A stretch of DNA of 64,000 bases from Ruegeria sp. HKCCA6707 (GTDB taxonomy: Bacteria; Pseudomonadota; Alphaproteobacteria; Rhodobacterales; Rhodobacteraceae). This document shows positions 54,979 through 62,940 of the stretch, in pieces (within the stretch, counting starts at the first letter, position 1; the number at the start of each line of letters is the position of its first letter). The position numbers and the translations under genes are program-made. The notes under the pieces are model-generated. The model made no database searches, had not been told where the DNA came from, and saw only the letters and a list, made by a program, of their open reading frames with translations. The stretch covers positions 744,001-808,000 of the forward strand of contig NZ_WQEG01000001.1 in NCBI RefSeq assembly GCF_013033515.1. Reading direction: 5' to 3'.

Positions 54979-56448
54979 TTATTGAAGTGCCGCGAGGCTT
55001 CTTGCTCTGTTTGGAGAAAGATCCAGCGTCGCCCGATAAGCGACCGCAGCTTCATTGGGTTTTCCAAGCTCCATCAGCATGTCCCCAAGAAGTTCTCGAG
55101 CCGGAAGGACGTGGCCGGGTGTGACCGGGCTTTTGCCAATCTTATCCTCGAGATCAGCCGCGGCTGCCTGCTTAGCAAATGCGGTCTCAGAGTCCCCACC
55201 CGCCAGTTCAATCCAGGCTTCCACCGACATGATCTGTGCTTCAGTCAACTGCGCCCAATAGCCCTGCTCACGCTCCTTCATCACAGCGTGCAAAGACTTG
55301 AGCTCGGCAAGCGCACTCTTCGCTGTATCGACATCACCGCTGCGGGCCGCTCCGATACCGATCGCGAACCACCGCATGGCAACAGTTTGTGGAAATTTCT
55401 CCCATGGAATGACCGGATGCATCTCAGGCGACAGTGCCGCCGCGACGTCCCATTGTCCCTGCTCAAGAGGCAGGCGAACGGGTGCAGCCGCTAACGCATA
55501 TGCGCTTCCGAAACTAGCCTGATGATTTTGAATTGCGAGCATTTCGTCGACCAGCCCTGCAGCTTCGTCTGTATTCCCAAGTTGTAGGTGGCCGTAAACC
55601 ATGTAGTCGATCGCATGCGCATAGTGGCTTTGTATCACGTCCTTTGATTGCTCGAGAGCTGCTTCAGCGGACCGGCTGTTCAGATCAATTGACTTTTCCC
55701 ATTCTCCTGTTCGTGTAAAGATATGAGCGGGCATATGCAGCGCATGTGGAGCGCTTGGAGCCGTTTTATCGTAAATCTCGGCGTACGGCCTGCCTCGCTC
55801 CTTGAGTGGCGGATTGTCATAGGCGTGGATCGCGTAGTGAATGACGCCAGGATGTTCTGGTGCCTTTTGGTGAAGCGCGTCGAGCGTATCTCCCACTTGC
55901 GACTTTACTTTGATTCCGTCGGCCCCTCGCGGCGCCGTTGCAAGGCGCGCCAGCGCCGCAAACGCCGCGGCCTCCAAGTCGTCTGCATGTTGGTCCGCAG
56001 CTGCAACCTGTTTTTCCGCCCACGATTTAAGCTGAGCGCGGTAGCCTTCCTGGCTTGAGGCGTAGAAAGCCACGGCGGCGTCGATCAATGCTTGTTCAAC
56101 GGCGCTTTCGGAGGACATTGACGCGAGTCTTTCCGCTGCAGCAGACCCCCTCTCTGTTTCGGCTTCACTGGGAGTGCCCGGCCAGAGAGGGTGAAAGTTC
56201 GACATCGCGATGCCCCACTGTGCAATGGCACAAGTTGGATCCGCAGACGCTGCTTTGTTGAACGCTTCTTCGGCTTGAATGTACATCATGTTGTGAATGA
56301 GATTCAGACCTTCGTTGAAAGCCTGGTCCGCTTTTGGGTTGCATGTCGTCTGGAAATTAGCCTCCGCTGAGACTGCGGGCACGAAAACAAAAAACGAGCT
56401 AATACAGGCGACAAAAGTATTGCGGGCTTTGGTTTGCAAATGCTGCAT
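54979..56448 (-). CDS. Exported TPR-repeat protein
   Basis: 489 residues: N-terminal signal (FVACISSFFVFVPAVSA) then helical repeats from AFNEGLNLIHNMMYIQAEEA through AAVAYRATLDLSPNRARSL. The HYAIHAYDNPPLKERG and PHALHMPAHIFTRTGEW stretches, rich in His, are typical of a conserved family of exported TPR proteins and may bind metal. Probable periplasmic scaffold or binding protein; partner unknown. Upstream end of the exported-protein cluster. Confidence 0.8.
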   Translation of the reverse strand: MQHLQTKARNTFVACISSFFVFVPAVSAEANFQTTCNPKADQAFNEGLNLIHNMMYIQAEEAFNKAASADPTCAIAQWGIAMSNFHPLWPGTPSEAETERGSAAAERLASMSSESAVEQALIDAAVAFYASSQEGYRAQLKSWAEKQVAAADQHADDLEAAAFAALARLATAPRGADGIKVKSQVGDTLDALHQKAPEHPGVIHYAIHAYDNPPLKERGRPYAEIYDKTAPSAPHALHMPAHIFTRTGEWEKSIDLNSRSAEAALEQSKDVIQSHYAHAIDYMVYGHLQLGNTDEAAGLVDEMLAIQNHQASFGSAYALAAAPVRLPLEQGQWDVAAALSPEMHPVIPWEKFPQTVAMRWFAIGIGAARSGDVDTAKSALAELKSLHAVMKEREQGYWAQLTEAQIMSVEAWIELAGGDSETAFAKQAAAADLEDKIGKSPVTPGHVLPARELLGDMLMELGKPNEAAVAYRATLDLSPNRARSLAALQ

Positions 56449-56650
56449 CTATCGTCTCCACATTAAATATTGTCCGAAATTGTTTGAGCGTATGGCTCGG
56501 CGGCATCATACACAAAATTGTGCGATATGTCCGAACAGTCAGCTGAGCGGCGATGCGCTCTGTTCGATCGAATATTTTCTTCCGCGGCGTATCCGCGTTA
56601 TCCGCTGAGCAGTCGTTCAAGAAAAGCAAACGTGCCGCAGCGCAGCTAAG

Positions 56651-56790
56651 GGCAGCTTAGTCCGCATAGCAGTCATTCAAGCCGAGTGCTGCGAATAGCT
56701 GCTTTGAGCCCTTTGCAGACTTCTTGCCGCAACCCAGTTGCTGCAACCGCATCAGGCCGCTCGCAGCCCAAAACGGACATTCGCAATTAG
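56651..56790. repeat. Degenerate intergenic repeat, copy 2
   Basis: GTCCGCATAGCAGTCATTCAAGCC followed by CTGCTTTGAGCCC and later GCCCAAAACGGACATTCGCA; similar in order to the copies at 44532 (other strand) and 61050. Confidence 0.45.
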
Positions 56791-56984
56791 ACTTTGCAAT
56801 TCCCGAGAAGCGTGGCAGATCAACCATTTGCTCGCGCCGCGAGTGCTTGCGCAGCATCAGTTCACCGGAGCGGCACGAATGTCGATGCGTTGCTGCTGAT
56901 GACGTCAGGCCAGTCATTCATAGCCACGAGGAAACCTTGATCACGTACCGCTCTGTCGCCGCACTCAGGCTCGACAAGAGAGAC

Positions 56985-57012
56985 GCGGACTTAAGCTGCC
57001 ATTCGCTGCTGC
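56985..57012. repeat. Degenerate intergenic repeat, copy 3 (short)
   Basis: GCGGACTTAAGCTGCCATTC and a following GCTGCTGC; partial copy of the same family. Confidence 0.4.
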
Positions 57013-57410
57013 TCCGCCCCCAAATCCCTACAACAACAGATTAATGCCAAGTAACTTCTTTCGGCGGTTCACCAGGCTACTTGGTCACGTGCTTGTTTCA
57101 CAAACACCTGCCTTAGCAGTACTAGCGTTGCGACGAGGGAAACTTCCTTGACTCTATTCTGGCAAAGGACCACAAACGTGCATTGGTGAAAATTAATCGT
57201 CGTCGCGATGCTGCCGGCCTCGATGATCCAATGGCCTTCAGACTAACTGTAGCATGTGCCCCAGCATAGGAACGGGTCGCGCTGGGGTCTTCGCGTTGAG
57301 CTCGTTCCTCGCAAGCATTCGCAACTGTCACCTGACATGCTCCAGTCATCGCGTGACCCATCAATGAAGGCGCCGTATGAACAGAACATGGCTTATAAAT
57401 CGCGTGCCCG

Positions 57411-58199
57411 ATGCCGGATAGATCAGGTCTCAGGCCCCGTTTCAATCAGTCACTCATCGTGTTTTCGCGCCGCGTTCTTTGTTTGATCCCGACACTCTTG
57501 GTGTTGCTCTCCGGAACGCAGCTTCCTGCCCAAGTCGCAGGCAATGCTGATGGATCGGTCTGTGACGAAGGCTTCGAAAACAAGAACGGATCGTGTCAAA
57601 GAGCAAACGCACCTGAAAATGCGCATTTTACCGGCAGTTCCTATGGTCCAGGTTGGGTATGCAACCATGGATTCAAGCGTGTTGGAGATTTTTGTGAGGA
57701 AATAGAAGTTCCTAAAAACGCATATCTTGCATCGACCGGAGATCGATGGGAGTGCAATCGGCTCTTCCGACAAGTCGGTGAAAGATGCGAAGAATTGATA
57801 GCGCCTCAAAATGGGTACGTCGGAACCCGGTTTGGCGCACAGGAAATACACTGCAACTGGGGATTTCGTAAGGAAAGCCAGACATGTGTTGCAATAGAAG
57901 TTCCAAAAAACGGTCGTCTGAGCGACAAAAGAAGCTCGGATGGGTGGGTATGCCTCAGAGGGTACAGGGCAGCGGAGAGCGGCTGTGAGCCTGTGGCCGT
58001 TCCACAGCATGCATACCTTGCGCCTGAAACCTACTCTGGATGGAAATGTGAACGTGGCTTTCGCGCAAACCAGGACAGTTGCGTTGCGATCCTAGTCCCT
58101 TCCAACGCTCATTTGAATCGAAGAGGTGATGGTTGGGAATGTAATCGGCCGTTCACAAGACAGAACGATAAGTGCGCCGAAAATATGCCGCGAAAATAG
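57411..58199 (+). CDS. Exported protein of Cys-pair repeats
   Basis: 262 residues: a hydrophobic leader (VLCLIPTLLVLLSG) and, from residue 51 on, six full and one partial repeat of 31-35 residues. The pattern per repeat is C-x2-G-[FY]-[KR]-x5-C, then a x-[AV]P-x-[NH]-[AG] turn and usually W-x-C opening the next, giving 14 Cys in pairs. It is probably periplasmic or surface-bound with disulfides. I recognise the pattern but no function. First of a plus-strand row with the small membrane protein 47 bp on. Confidence 0.75.
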   Translation: MPDRSGLRPRFNQSLIVFSRRVLCLIPTLLVLLSGTQLPAQVAGNADGSVCDEGFENKNGSCQRANAPENAHFTGSSYGPGWVCNHGFKRVGDFCEEIEVPKNAYLASTGDRWECNRLFRQVGERCEELIAPQNGYVGTRFGAQEIHCNWGFRKESQTCVAIEVPKNGRLSDKRSSDGWVCLRGYRAAESGCEPVAVPQHAYLAPETYSGWKCERGFRANQDSCVAILVPSNAHLNRRGDGWECNRPFTRQNDKCAENMPRK

Positions 58200-58246
58200 G
58201 TTCGCTGGAAATCAATATCGCCTGACAAATCCGGAAGGACCAAGCC

Positions 58247-58384
58247 GTGAACCATAACTCGATTGACGAAAACCTTGGCAAAATGCTCAAGGCCGAAAGG
58301 GCGCATTGCTGTTCCTACAGAGTAAAGATGTTTATCGCGTTATTGGTGTTTGTTGCGACCATAATTGTGGTGGTGTTTCTCTGA
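58247..58384 (+). CDS. Small membrane protein (45 aa)
   Basis: Starts with GTG at 58247 behind GGAAGGA. After a charged helix (DENLGKMLKAERAHCC) comes one membrane segment (MFIALLVFVATIIVVVFL) running to the stop. Its TGA overlaps the ATG of the next gene (TGATG), the usual mark of coupled translation. Too short to compare with families, but the site, the segment and the coupling together support a real gene. Confidence 0.65.
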   Translation: MNHNSIDENLGKMLKAERAHCCSYRVKMFIALLVFVATIIVVVFL

Positions 58385-59073
58385 TGCGCAAAAATGCCCC
58401 TCAAGTAACCCTTCACGGTTCAAAGATGTCAGCTCGTGGTCTGGAACAAAGAGCATTTCAGGATCGCAGTGTTCGTGAGTCGCGGAACGCTGACGTCGCA
58501 GGAGTGATTGAAGAAGAATTTGGAAAGTACTTGATTAAGGCCGGCATCCTGAGCGGTAACAGCGTTGCGCGCGCATTCCCCAAGCCACCGGCTAAAACGC
58601 AGACAATGATTGCTGATGCAGTCGGCGAAACACCAGCATTGGCCATCGAAGCATTAAAAGAAATTCTCGGTGAACGAGACAGGAAACGTAGCGGTCAACG
58701 CCGTTTGGAGAGAAACTCCGGCACCCTCGTTCCCAGTGAAAGAGAATATGCCGAGGCATTGCGACAGATTAGGCTCACCCCTGCGCAAGTCACTATGCTC
58801 AAAGCACTTACAATCGCAGGCAAGGACGGTCTGACCATTGGTCATTTGTCTCAGGCGGCCGGTTACAAATCGCGCGAGGCCTCCATCAAGGTTTTTAAGA
58901 AAATCGGACTATTGATCGCAGAATATCTGGAACTGGACCTACCCGAAGCCGGATCGGTGCAGCATGATGGCGCCGCTCAGGTCCTGGCGTTTTCTCACAT
59001 CGAAAGTGACGATCAGCCAGCCACTTGGGTTATGCATCAGGAACTGCGCGACGCTGTTCGTTCGGTTCTATGA
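58384..59073 (+). CDS. Unknown protein with a possible C-terminal winged-helix region
   Basis: 229 residues from the ATG that overlaps the small-membrane-protein stop. N-terminus basic (MRKNAPQVTLHGSKMSARGL), a middle rich in charged helices, and from residue 145 LTPAQVTMLKALTIAGKDGLTIGHLSQAAGYKS, which could be a winged-helix fold. No signal peptide. I do not recognise the family. May be a regulator or DNA-binding partner controlled by the small membrane protein upstream. Confidence 0.65.
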   Translation: MRKNAPQVTLHGSKMSARGLEQRAFQDRSVRESRNADVAGVIEEEFGKYLIKAGILSGNSVARAFPKPPAKTQTMIADAVGETPALAIEALKEILGERDRKRSGQRRLERNSGTLVPSEREYAEALRQIRLTPAQVTMLKALTIAGKDGLTIGHLSQAAGYKSREASIKVFKKIGLLIAEYLELDLPEAGSVQHDGAAQVLAFSHIESDDQPATWVMHQELRDAVRSVL

Positions 59074-59147
59074 CGCACGTTCCAGTCCCCGCTTTTGCAA
59101 CGAACTCTGAACCGGAACAATTGCACGAAAGGTTACTCACGTAGCTT

Positions 59148-59396
59148 ATGTTGGAGAAAAGACCATATCCGCTCGACCTGATCTATGTGCCTGTGAAACG
59201 GGCGAAAACGCTTGATCAACAAAAAGTTCTGACGCTGGCAGAAGATATCCTGAAGAACGGCCAGAAGACCCCGATCCAGATACGCTCGGACAACAAGAGG
59301 TTCGTGCTGATTGAAGGCCTTCACCGATTAGAGGCCATTCGCGCCCTGGGCGGTGATACGGTCGAAGCCTATCTGGTACGCGCCAGACTACACTAA
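59148..59396 (+). CDS. Small ParB N-terminal-like domain protein (82 aa)
   Basis: A minimal ParB/sulfiredoxin-superfamily domain: KVLTLAEDILKNGQKTPIQI followed by IEGLHRLEAIRALGGDTVEA, with the G-x-H-R core that binds nucleotide in this fold. No helix-turn-helix or C-terminal domain. Overlaps the desaturase gene on the other strand by 9 bases. The ribosome-binding site is poor, so expression is less certain. Roles include CTP-switch-like regulation or sulfiredoxin-like chemistry; neither is shown. Confidence 0.7.
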   Translation: MLEKRPYPLDLIYVPVKRAKTLDQQKVLTLAEDILKNGQKTPIQIRSDNKRFVLIEGLHRLEAIRALGGDTVEAYLVRARLH

Positions 59397-60401
59397 ATGC
59401 CTTTTGGAATTGGCGTTCGACAAAGCCTCGGAAAATGTCAGCAGACGTTGACTTTTTTCATCCCAAAGATGCAATCGTGCACAATGAAAGCTCTCATATA
59501 GAGTAATACGCTGGCAATTTTCTAACGCAGAATGGTCACGCAAAACTTCGTTTAGCCGGTAAAACGGTATGCGGCTGGCAAGGTGGTGAACATGGTGTAC
59601 GCCGATGTTAGCAGAGAACCACCGCAGGATGCCTGGTAGGGCATAGTGAGAACTTCCATAGAATGCGGCGTTCTGAAGGTTCCACCCCTCTTCCCGTTCC
59701 CAGGTCGTGTGTTCAAACTGGTGTTGAATATAGAAAAGCCAAATACCAATCGATGATGCGACAATCATGGTTGGTAGGAAAACATACGATAATACCTCAA
59801 TGCCTCCGGCCCAAAAAACTAGGGCCAATATCCCTGCAATTGCAGCGTTTGTTCCCATCGCACTTGCCCAGTACAGCCAGCCCGAACGCATGAAACCAAG
59901 AGGTAAACGGTTTTGAATAAAGAACGTATAGATCGGCGCAACACCGAACAGGAAGACGGGGTTCCGGGTCAGACGATAAGCGGCACGCCCGAACCACTTC
60001 CGCTTCAGGTATTCTTCAGTGGTCAATGTAGGGATGTCACCCATACCACGCCGATCAAGGTTACCGGTTGAAGCGTGGTGAATCGCATGGCTTTGCCGCC
60101 AAACGTCATAGGGTGTCAGGGCAAGAACACCCAGAACCCGACCGGTCCAATTGCAAACAGTGCGACTTCTAAAGAAAGATCCATGACCGCAATCATGCAT
60201 AATGATGAAGATACGGACCAGAAACGCGGCATTCAGGATGGCCAGTAGTATTGCGATCCAGACACTAAAAGATAACGCAAACCACGCTAGGGCCCATAGC
60301 GCAAATAAGGGAGCTACTGTGATCGCAAGTTCAAAAACACTGCGCTTCGCATCGGCAACACGGTATTGCGCGAGCACCCTCGTCCAGTCTTTAGGTTGCA
60401 A
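59388..60401 (-). CDS. Fatty acid desaturase
   Basis: Membrane di-iron desaturase, 337 residues. The three histidine boxes are present: HDCGHGSF, HAIHH (SHAIHHAS) and HVHH (GVHHVHHLAS). Two pairs of membrane segments lie before and between the boxes. It inserts a double bond in membrane acyl chains; neighbouring cold-shock gene makes a cold-membrane response plausible. Same strand as cspA, 74 bp downstream. Confidence 0.9.
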   Translation of the reverse strand: MQPKDWTRVLAQYRVADAKRSVFELAITVAPLFALWALAWFALSFSVWIAILLAILNAAFLVRIFIIMHDCGHGSFFRSRTVCNWTGRVLGVLALTPYDVWRQSHAIHHASTGNLDRRGMGDIPTLTTEEYLKRKWFGRAAYRLTRNPVFLFGVAPIYTFFIQNRLPLGFMRSGWLYWASAMGTNAAIAGILALVFWAGGIEVLSYVFLPTMIVASSIGIWLFYIQHQFEHTTWEREEGWNLQNAAFYGSSHYALPGILRWFSANIGVHHVHHLASRIPFYRLNEVLRDHSALENCQRITLYESFHCARLHLWDEKSQRLLTFSEALSNANSKRHLV

Positions 60402-60443
60402 GTTACTTGTTCTCCAATGGCTTATTGTAGCCCATTGTTCAAT

Positions 60444-60466
60444 AGGGCACCCGAAAAGGGTGCCCT
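60444..60466 (-). terminator. Hairpin after the cold-shock gene
   Basis: GGGCACCC and GGGTGCCC form an 8-bp stem with a GAAAA loop, between cspA and the desaturase. On the minus strand no T run follows, so it may stabilise the short cspA message rather than end transcription fully. Confidence 0.5.
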
Positions 60467-60475
60467 TAAAAAAGG

Positions 60476-60682
60476 TCAGGCGAGTGCCAGATTGGCGGCG
60501 CTTTCGCGTCCGTCACGGCCAGCTTCGACGTCAAAAGTAACCTTCTGACCGTCTTTCAATTCACTAAGGCCGGAACGTTCGATTGCTGAGATATGTACGA
60601 ACACATCGCGCTTGCCATCTTCAGGCTCGATAAAGCCAAAACCTTTGGTCGAGTTGAACCATTTTACTGTGCCTTTTGCCAT
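60476..60682 (-). CDS. cspA: Cold-shock protein (CspA family)
   Basis: 68 residues with RNP1 ([11 protein letters not shown]) and RNP2 ([10 protein letters not shown]) of the OB-fold, starting [17 protein letters not shown]. It binds single-stranded RNA/DNA and acts as an RNA chaperone. The longer frame to 61231 is a chance extension. Leader of about 100 bases before it could form structure but none is clear. Confidence 0.95.
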
Positions 60683-61311
60683 GGTGGAAATCTCCAAATA
60701 CTTGCCGCCCGCATTATTGCGGCGACTCGGCGTGGTCGGTCTGAATCGAAAGACTGAACGCCGAATTGGGGAGACAGCAGGTCGAAAAAGAAAAACGTAA
60801 GCCTTGTGTATATGGACTTCGAGTACGCACGATACAAGCCTTGATGCGGTGGAGGGCAACAGAGAAATCGAGCCTGCCTGGCTTAGAACTCTACAAGTTG
60901 AGAAGACGCTGTCGTTCTGCGATCCAAACGCGAAGTCGGCTTGGGAGGCCGTACAAAAGATCAATGACCGCTTTTGGGAATCTATCCCGCAACATCCGAG
61001 ACAGCTATAAGCGTCCGTTTTGATGCCGTAGCGAGACTTTGCAAAGTCCGGTCTCTGCGCATAACAGTCGTTGGCCCGGACTGCAGCATTCGGCGTTTTG
61101 GGCTCAAAGCGGCCGCTCGCAGAGTTTGGGCGAATTTCTGCTGTGCGCGGACAGAACAGCCATTGGCCCGCTTTCACCGGAGGACCGCACACAAGCGAAG
61201 GAGACGTTTGCGAGCAAAACTCTGAGAACAATAAATTACGATTTGATTATACAAAATGCTGAAGTATCCTTTGTTGAAGTAACCACATATAGATTGGCTG
61301 TTTAGGAGGGG
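60683..61311. other. Intergenic region between cspA and the L,D-transpeptidase
   Basis: 629 bp. No gene is supported. The part near 61050-61175 carries a degenerate repeat listed separately. It must contain the cspA and transpeptidase promoters. Confidence 0.4.
61050..61175. repeat. Degenerate intergenic repeat, copy 4
   Basis: TCTGCGCATAACAGTCGTTGG, CATTCGGCGTTTTGGGCTC and GCGCGGACAGAACAGCCATT occur in this order, like the words of the copies at 44532 and 56651. Confidence 0.45.
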
Positions 61312-62940
61312 ATGGTGAAAGTTCTTAGATCGGCGGTTGCAACGGCAATGATTGCAACGCTGATAACATGCCCTAATTTGGGCGCAGCAGACCAAGTCTC
61401 GGAGCAGATAGAAGCGCTGCTACGGTCAAATACGAATGCGAGTAATACACTTTCAAACAACAAGAGTTTGGACGCAGAAATCCTTCTACCTCGTTTCTAT
61501 GCGGAAAGAGAATTTGCGCCAGCCTGGACCAGTTCTGATTTGGTTGACGAGCTTTTTGAGGAGTTGGATGGAGCCATTGATCAGGGCTTTACGCCGAGGG
61601 ACTTCAAACTAGAAGAGCTTCGATCCGCATTCAAAGCCTCACAGGGTGGCGATGCCTCCAGTCGAGCTTCATTCGATATTCTGGCGACTGACGCGGCCGT
61701 AAAACTCGTACACCATTTGGTGTTTGGAAAAGTCGATCCAAATGCGCTAGACGACGATTGGAATTTCTCAAAACCAGTAATTCAACAAGACCCTTCCGTT
61801 GCATTGAGCCAATATCTTCAAGGTGAAGGTTTCAGCGCTTTAATTGAACGCATCGATATCGACAACGGGCAATACACGATGCTCGTTGATGCATTGCGCA
61901 AATACAGAGCTATCGCATCAAAGGGAGGCTGGAACACCGTTCCCGAAGAAACGGTTCTGAAGCCGGAAATGGTGGATCCTGCCGTCGCCGAACTGCGCAA
62001 AAGGCTAGCGACAGAAGGCTACGATGGAGCAAATGAATTTCCAGAAATCAGCCAAAACGGAATAAATCCAGCTTGGGTTTATGACGATTACTTGGTGCAA
62101 CAGGTAAAAACCTTTCAAAATCGTCACGGCTTGGAGGCAGATGGCGTCGTTGGTGGTAAGACCTTCGCGTCTCTCAACAAACCTGTCGAAGATCGCATAG
62201 ATAAATTGCGGCTCAGCCTGGAGCGAGGCCGCTGGCTCATGCGCGAAATCGACGAAGAGTTCGTGCTGGTAAACATTGCGGGCGCTCGTACTTACTTGGT
62301 CGCGTCCGATGGGACGCTTTGGACCACTCGGTCGATCACAGGATCAGCCTACAGAAAAACCCCAGTGTTCCGAGATGAAATTGAATACATGGAATTCAAT
62401 CCGACTTGGACTGTTCCCGCTTCGATTTTTCGGAAGGATAAGCTTTCGCGCATCCGCAAGGATCCAGACTATCTGGCGCGCAACAATTACGTAGTTCGGA
62501 ACAAAGACGGTCAGACGATTCCTGCCAACGCTGTGAACTGGGGAGCTAAGAACCCCGGCGTCACTTTGGTTCAGCAGCCGGGACCAGACAATGCGCTAGG
62601 TTTAGTCAAGTTCATGTTTCCAAATAAATACGCAGTGTACTTGCATGATACCAACGACCGCAGCCTTTTCGACCGAAATGAGCGGAACCTCAGTTCCGGC
62701 TGCGTTCGCCTTGAGTATCCGTTCGAATTTGCCAGCCTTTTGATGGAGGGAGATCCGGACTGGAGTCGGCAAAAAATGCAATCTATTCTGGATAGCGGGA
62801 AGACAACGCGAGTTGACCTACCCGAGCCCATGCCGGTCCTTTTGACCTATTGGACTGCATGGGTCGAAGATGAGGCCGTTCATTTCCGTGAGGACCCATA
62901 CGAACGAGACGCTCGAATACTTGCAGCTTTGGACCGATGA
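61312..62940 (+). CDS. L,D-transpeptidase (YcbB/LdtD-like)
   Basis: 542 residues with a signal peptide (AVATAMIATLITCPNLGA), an N-terminal scaffold, a peptidoglycan-binding-like segment (VKTFQNRHGLEADGVVGGKT) and a YkuD catalytic domain with His in YLHDTNDRSLF and the Cys in LSSGCVRLEYP. It makes 3-3 cross-links in peptidoglycan in the periplasm. ATG at 61312 follows AGGAGG. The order scaffold, PG-binding, YkuD matches the LdtD type. Confidence 0.93.
   Translation: MVKVLRSAVATAMIATLITCPNLGAADQVSEQIEALLRSNTNASNTLSNNKSLDAEILLPRFYAEREFAPAWTSSDLVDELFEELDGAIDQGFTPRDFKLEELRSAFKASQGGDASSRASFDILATDAAVKLVHHLVFGKVDPNALDDDWNFSKPVIQQDPSVALSQYLQGEGFSALIERIDIDNGQYTMLVDALRKYRAIASKGGWNTVPEETVLKPEMVDPAVAELRKRLATEGYDGANEFPEISQNGINPAWVYDDYLVQQVKTFQNRHGLEADGVVGGKTFASLNKPVEDRIDKLRLSLERGRWLMREIDEEFVLVNIAGARTYLVASDGTLWTTRSITGSAYRKTPVFRDEIEYMEFNPTWTVPASIFRKDKLSRIRKDPDYLARNNYVVRNKDGQTIPANAVNWGAKNPGVTLVQQPGPDNALGLVKFMFPNKYAVYLHDTNDRSLFDRNERNLSSGCVRLEYPFEFASLLMEGDPDWSRQKMQSILDSGKTTRVDLPEPMPVLLTYWTAWVEDEAVHFREDPYERDARILAALDR

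Follow-up and report, generated by a model that had tools for sequence, protein, structure and literature searches.

A four-gene unit that moves between Ruegeria species and encodes a predicted winged-helix protein whose family accompanies accessory cold-shock and desaturase genes

Results

Layout of the locus

The window (the whole stretch of 64,000 nucleotides that was analysed) contains a block of four genes that is more than a chance arrangement. Together with a conserved 5' leader, the block moves as a whole between Ruegeria species, and the family of its third product, a predicted winged-helix protein, tends to occur with accessory cspA and desaturase genes. That the same gene set, in unchanged order, has moved as one unit among related species points to an accessory system not yet described, with ties to cold-shock and membrane-fluidity genes. 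No paper on this four-gene set was found in the literature; an earlier note, made from the DNA letters of the window, had likewise known of no described system with this set. The features of the locus are listed below (in the text, L-numbers denote loci and G-numbers genomes).

56679–61206, strand not applicable: segment bounded by the homology ends of the left and right neighbours, from comparison with other Ruegeria genomes
56763–61062, strand not applicable: approximate extent of the block common to close copies; the DNA outside is mostly unrelated on both sides
57145–57410, plus strand: conserved 5' leader of the operon, from the TTGACT box; core at 57193–57257
57377–57421, plus strand: possible upstream reading frame of 14 aa, overlapping the start of gene 1; found by script
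57411–58199, plus strand: gene 1 (CYS), exported protein of 262 aa; ATG start; seven C-x10-C pairs
58247–58384, plus strand: gene 2 (TM45), one-pass membrane peptide of 45 aa, from hydropathy; GTG start
58384–59073, plus strand: gene 3 (WH229), 229 aa, unnamed family; ATG within TGATG; predicted beta4-alpha domain (42–104) and winged helix (119–229)
59148–59396, plus strand: gene 4 (PARB), stand-alone ParB/sulfiredoxin-fold domain of 82 aa; ATG start; GLHR (GxxR) box
59388–60401, minus strand: fatty-acid desaturase (PF00487), convergent; adjoins 18 of 26 copies
60476–60682, minus strand: cold-shock protein CspA (PF00313); accompanies 18 of 26 copies
60683–60817, minus strand: conserved cspA leader, common to other genera; from the alignment across genera

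The four plus-strand frames lie in a row at 57411–59396, as the earlier note had described them, and genes 2 and 3 overlap by one base at the TGATG that it had pointed out (frames checked in the sequence). The first product is the exported repeat protein with 14 Cys that had been expected there. CYS contains 15 Cys: one falls in a signal-peptide-like segment, and the other 14 form seven C-x10-C pairs (51/62 to 244/255). In an alignment of 24 sequences (23 of the 26 Ruegeria copies plus L142, a locus of the second genus in G389), no more than one sequence lacks Cys at any of these 14 columns. An EGF-like domain was rejected: its match remained below the Pfam cut-off (EGF_MSP1_1, 21.7 bits against 27), and CYS has two Cys per repeat. 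The GTG start of TM45 is preceded by GGAAGGA, and the best 19-residue mean hydropathy of the peptide is 2.9.

Conservation of the operon and its leader

Conserved co-occurrence of all four genes in several genomes had been proposed as support for a system, and the block, with its order kept, was found in 26 copies in 25 of 54 Ruegeria species genomes. G067 contains two operon copies, and the gene 1 search across the 54 Ruegeria genomes revealed a further fragment in the genome with two copies. One copy lies on the 787-kb plasmid of R. conchae (gene 3 identity, 92.6%). Gene 3 stands behind gene 1 in all 26 copies, L051 ending inside gene 3 at a contig end. Gene 4 is recognisable in 25 copies and uninterrupted in 23, with breaks in L057 and L063; in L065 it is genes 1 and 2 that are broken, and in L059 the ATG of gene 3 is lost and a start codon lies one codon upstream. 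Gaps and dN/dS were tabulated for 22 of the 26 copies (L051, L057, L059 and L065 omitted). In these, the median dN/dS was 0.17, 0.32, 0.11 and 0.05 for genes 1, 2, 3 and 4, respectively, and genes 2 and 3 overlapped by one base in 22 of 22, with L054 reading TAATG and not TGATG. Order, overlap and leader persist in copies down to 65–76% DNA identity. Purifying selection (dN/dS 0.05–0.32) together with the broken genes of some copies indicates that the unit is selected yet dispensable.

With order, overlap and selection conserved, the operon proposed in the earlier note holds, and the leader and the four genes are most likely co-transcribed. Separate promoters between the genes had been named as evidence against it; a simple scan found no consensus promoter between the operon genes, but found none at the operon start either.

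The homology of divergent copies starts at the TTGACT box, at about 57145, and runs to the stop codon of gene 4 or a few nucleotides further. The block 57211–57260 obtained the top conservation score, 0.92, of all 50-nt blocks between 56711 and 59650 (20 of the 26 copies), and the runner-up (0.91) lies in gene 4; the alignment of the leader itself comprised 23 of the 26 copies. A leader peptide was considered and rejected, since the start of a 27-aa frame in the leader is broken in five of the 26 copies though the bases stay; an internal shift is also present in L056 and L064. The breakage of this frame while its bases are kept indicates that the leader is conserved as RNA or DNA. A second frame of 13–14 aa, overlapping the gene 1 start, was found by script in 25 of the 26 copies and is putatively coding. 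A riboswitch-like fold was also discarded, as the RNAalifold covariation was weak (-1.35; double changes in 5 of 40 pairs). In Rfam, searched with 56400–61400 at E 1, the sole match was cspA, outside the operon leader, and no motif common to the operon leader and the cspA leader was seen by eye. When the leader core was sought in other genera, the top-scoring site of L142, upstream of its gene 1, did not outscore the best chance hits elsewhere. The conserved leader is likely the site of operon control.

Mobility and boundaries of the unit

The genes flanking the operon differ in most Ruegeria genomes, and near-identical operons occur in species with distant reference genes; hence the unit is horizontally mobile. 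Operons 0.1–2.1% apart were found in species whose reference gene is 23–30% different, among them G021/G061 (operons 0.1% apart, reference gene 29%), G012/G021 (0.6% and 25%), G026/G062 (1.6% and 28%) and G000/G026 (1.0% and 30%). Operon distances did not track those of the reference gene, which is present in 54 of 54 genomes: the Spearman coefficient was -0.11 (300 pairs, codon-guided alignment) and, in a cruder comparison, -0.16 (263 pairs). Among themselves, the leader and genes 1, 3 and 4 have correlated pairwise distances (Spearman 0.68–0.86). Although the reference is a single gene, the contrast is marked. These data show that the unit moves as a whole.

The left end is identical in seven close copies, and the preceding DNA differs in six of them; L052 has about 60 further bases beyond this end in common with the window. 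Beyond the unit, a left flank is common to L044, L046, L047, L048 and L054, to 1.4–2.9 kb, and includes an extra gene of 261–315 aa with no Pfam match, and another left flank is common to L049 and L050, to 8.5 kb. The homology of the left neighbour ends at 56648–56678 in three stretches (96%) and at 56603 in a fourth (85%), and that of the right neighbour begins at 61207–61210 in six of the six stretches examined. These ends were mapped separately, in four and six stretches, and we infer an insertion of the unit between the two neighbours; the neighbours side by side were not found in the hit lists. Both neighbours are accessory genes themselves: relatives of the left one (54979–56448, minus strand) occur in 7 of 54 Ruegeria genomes, and relatives of 81–100% to the right one (61312–62940, plus strand) in 13 of 54, the own genome included in these counts. 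Short imperfect candidate inverted repeats lie near both unit ends. No transposase match was obtained for the six products tested (the four operon products, the desaturase and CspA). A high-copy repeat at the left end was rejected, since the own genome contains just one copy of the leftmost 127 bases of the segment.

Small tyrosine-recombinase-like genes were seen near operon copies or gene 3 relatives in L044, L046, L049, L050, L064, L141, L144, L146, L148 and L149; that of L044 was tested with PF00589, and L049 carries one on each side of the block. In L106, L107, L049, L050, L064, L137, L144 and L146–L149 a recurrent neighbourhood of Cys-repeat, DUF1611, alanine-racemase-like and small unnamed genes was observed, often including a Crp/Fnr gene. 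The DUF1611-racemase neighbourhood is present near 3 of the 26 operon copies.

WH229 and its neighbourhoods in other genera

WH229 had no match in Pfam or NCBIfam, and none of note was obtained for 31 of its relatives (best E 0.02 and 0.008); MarR_2 was touched by one of the 31 family members (E 0.09). AlphaFold2 with a diverse alignment (pLDDT 80.9) predicts a beta4-alpha domain at 42–104 and a winged helix at 119–229, whereas the model from Ruegeria sequences alone was poor (pLDDT 59). In the model, residues 119–229 superpose on MarR/ArsR-type regulators (VIA-align best Z 8.4, 83 residues, 3.2 A), from which WH229 differs by its extra N-terminal beta4-alpha domain. All Foldseek matches of the model to solved structures had E above 0.01, the best match in the viral fold library had E 0.014, and nothing in the phage records matched WH229. 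The N-terminal domain superposes on 6d7k (Z 7.8, 63 residues, 2.5 A), which we take to be MmoD, the inhibitory subunit of methane monooxygenase; Foldseek gave E 0.8–1 for this pair, there is no sequence link, and a Z below 8 may reflect a common arrangement. For this domain no solid relative was found, and MmoD is a lead only. The model and its middling fold matches thus support a two-domain winged-helix protein, which the earlier note had called possible.

The profile of the family detected at least 27 of 392 other Roseobacteraceae genera, one genome each, and at least 2 of 384 other genomes in a class-wide sample (E 1e-8). The searches for WH229 and PARB, and the class-wide one, scored limited candidates per genome, and the counts are lower bounds. 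Three distant relatives, in L151–L153, lie just downstream of valS, between it and an aminotransferase-like gene, the latter not seen in L153 (names given by eye).

In 21 of these 27 genera cspA lies upstream of the WH229 homologue on the same strand, against 2 of 40 control loci, and across the 21 the desaturase is either between the two or absent there. A desaturase adjoins the homologue in 12 of 27 genera against 1 of 40 controls; ten of these 12 are in one piece and two are broken, and that of L136 is downstream. A Cys-repeat gene occurs within 6 kb of the homologue in 14 of 27 genera and in 0 of 40 controls. The 40 control loci surround PARB genes from Roseobacteraceae and were searched at E 1e-4, against 1e-2 for the WH229 loci; among the latter, L155 begins right at the end of a contig, and others are short on one side. 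The association of the winged-helix family with accessory cspA and desaturase genes is firm. In Ruegeria, cspA and desaturase accompany 18 of the 26 operon copies, and neither is present in the stretch examined for the other 8. The clusters of the other Roseobacteraceae share with the window a WH229 homologue of 30–45% identity, but there the winged-helix gene follows cspA on its strand, whereas in Ruegeria it belongs to the four-gene operon, to which cspA and desaturase are convergent.

In the second genus, L142 keeps genes 1, 3 and 4 in the same order (50, 37 and 62% identity); the place of gene 2 is taken by only 86 bases, which leaves no room for TM45. This order dates the association to before Ruegeria or points to an ancient transfer. 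No PARB stands beside the WH229 homologue in 26 of the 27 other genera (L134 has a weak ParB-like match at 6.9 kb), and PARB is thus not needed for the role of the winged-helix protein there. The earlier note had regarded homologues of the 229-aa protein found alone as evidence against a system. In these 26 genera, some with loci short on one side, the link to PARB does not stand; L142 preserves it together with gene 1.

The cspA leader of the window is conserved at 21 other-genus loci (L129–L141 and L143–L150) and in Ruegeria (29 sequences aligned). RNAalifold gave two hairpins, three pairs with double changes, mostly between Ruegeria and the other sequences, and a structure in which the Shine-Dalgarno bases may be paired. 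The Rfam cspA thermoregulator matches this leader, but below its gathering score.

PARB, a stand-alone ParB-type domain

The ParB-type domain that had been recognised in the last gene was corroborated by PHROG 3264, the ParB N-terminal domain (E 1.5e-14), and by the NCBI annotation of the R. conchae protein as ParB-type; the Pfam ParB score of 17.5 bits was under the cut-off of 26.3. G57, H59 and R60 of the GxxR P motif (box II) are invariant across 19 sequences. A canonical ParB partition protein was rejected, given the 82 aa of PARB without HTH or dimerisation domains (TIGR00180, 21.6 bits against a cut-off of 58.45). Sulfiredoxins carry their catalytic Cys in a GCHR-type motif; PARB has GLHR and no Cys, and this assignment was dismissed despite a phmmer E of 1.1e-4 to 6ky4.

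According to a published survey of orphan ParB-like proteins (PMC12704722), the GxxR box of ParB contacts phosphates, the orphans are often found on mobile DNA, and nucleotide specificity is not predictable within the ParB-CTPase fold. PARB shares with these orphans the domain, by sequence, and the GxxR P motif, but it is a bare domain with no attached HTH or fusion, and the DNA-binding-type protein is separate and adjacent.

The PARB family was detected in at least 52 of 392 other Roseobacteraceae genera (E 1e-12). Of 54 other places, 40 were examined, plus L142: neither gene 1 nor gene 3 was near PARB in any of the 40 neighbourhoods, so that 40 of 41 loci lack both and L142 is the exception. 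On Microvirga plasmids (L101–L104) a divergent gene of about 67 aa lies at a constant spacing from the PARB relative in 4 of 4 plasmids, and 5 of 8 Microvirga records have two PARB places.

Discussion

The mobility of the unit, its leader and its link to cspA and desaturase are additions to the earlier note, whose proposal of a membrane-linked sensing unit stays putative. We tentatively read the unit, leader and four genes together, as an accessory regulatory switch tied to a cold-shock and membrane-desaturation module, the likeliest of the readings considered but somewhat short of even odds. In it, WH229 would be the DNA-binding regulator of that accessory module. PARB, a nucleotide-binding-type domain without a DNA-binding part of its own, may gate WH229 in trans as a split ParB switch. 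TM45 and CYS would form the envelope side, as either signal input or regulated product, and control of the operon would probably be exerted at the conserved leader. The fuller version, with a free ParB domain acting in trans on WH229, coupled to the envelope pair and to the leader RNA or DNA, and spread by way of a cassette of about 4.3 kb, lacking a transposase and carrying the cold-shock and desaturase genes as well, is more speculative and, in our estimation, rather unlikely in all its parts.

The main rival is a defence or conflict module, anti-phage or toxin-antitoxin-like, in which the membrane peptide or the exported protein would be the effector under the control of WH229 and PARB. Patchy occurrence, repeated transfer, the two copies of G067 and the broken copies would all fit it, as would the faster evolution of exported CYS relative to PARB. 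PARB also has a weak PADLOC match to PD-Lambda-5_A (E 4e-4), and single matches such as PifA, mads_2 and TnsB/TniQ occur among the flanking proteins. However, CYS, TM45 and WH229 had no PADLOC match at E 1, and the 93 flanking proteins gave eight PADLOC families at E 1e-10, of which seven were represented by a single protein, which indicates no clear defence islands. The winged-helix family is, moreover, linked to cspA elsewhere. We regard defence as doubtful. A similarly low probability is given to a mobile collection of modules that travel together by chance, with no common function: cspA-desaturase at just 18 of 26 copies, PARB separate from genes 1 and 3 in 40 of 41 other loci and the subgroup of five copies with an extra left gene point this way, but the persistence of order, overlap and leader down to 65–76% DNA identity, dN/dS well under 1 for genes 1–4 and the same order of genes 1, 3 and 4 in a second genus argue against it.

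Two further explanations are far less probable. A reduced partition system of PARB and WH229, maintaining plasmid or chromosome, would account for the ParB-type domain and for the copy on the 787-kb plasmid of R. conchae, but an 82-aa PARB with no HTH or dimerisation domain (and the TIGR00180 score given above) and the many unrelated contexts of the block make it very improbable. That the operon products themselves move the cassette, as a transposition system with no known transposase, is scarcely likely either: close copies do share their ends, short imperfect inverted repeats lie nearby and the six products tested gave no transposase match, but the four products have no nuclease or recombinase family match, and the tyrosine recombinase genes near some copies could act in trans.

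The accessory regulatory switch remains our preferred, tentative reading. The findings delineate a protein family that has no name and is linked to accessory cold-shock genes across a widespread family of marine bacteria. They also document clearly that a compact operon lacking its own transposase has passed between species, and they provide a natural setting in which to ask if a free ParB domain can act on a DNA-binding partner that is a separate protein.
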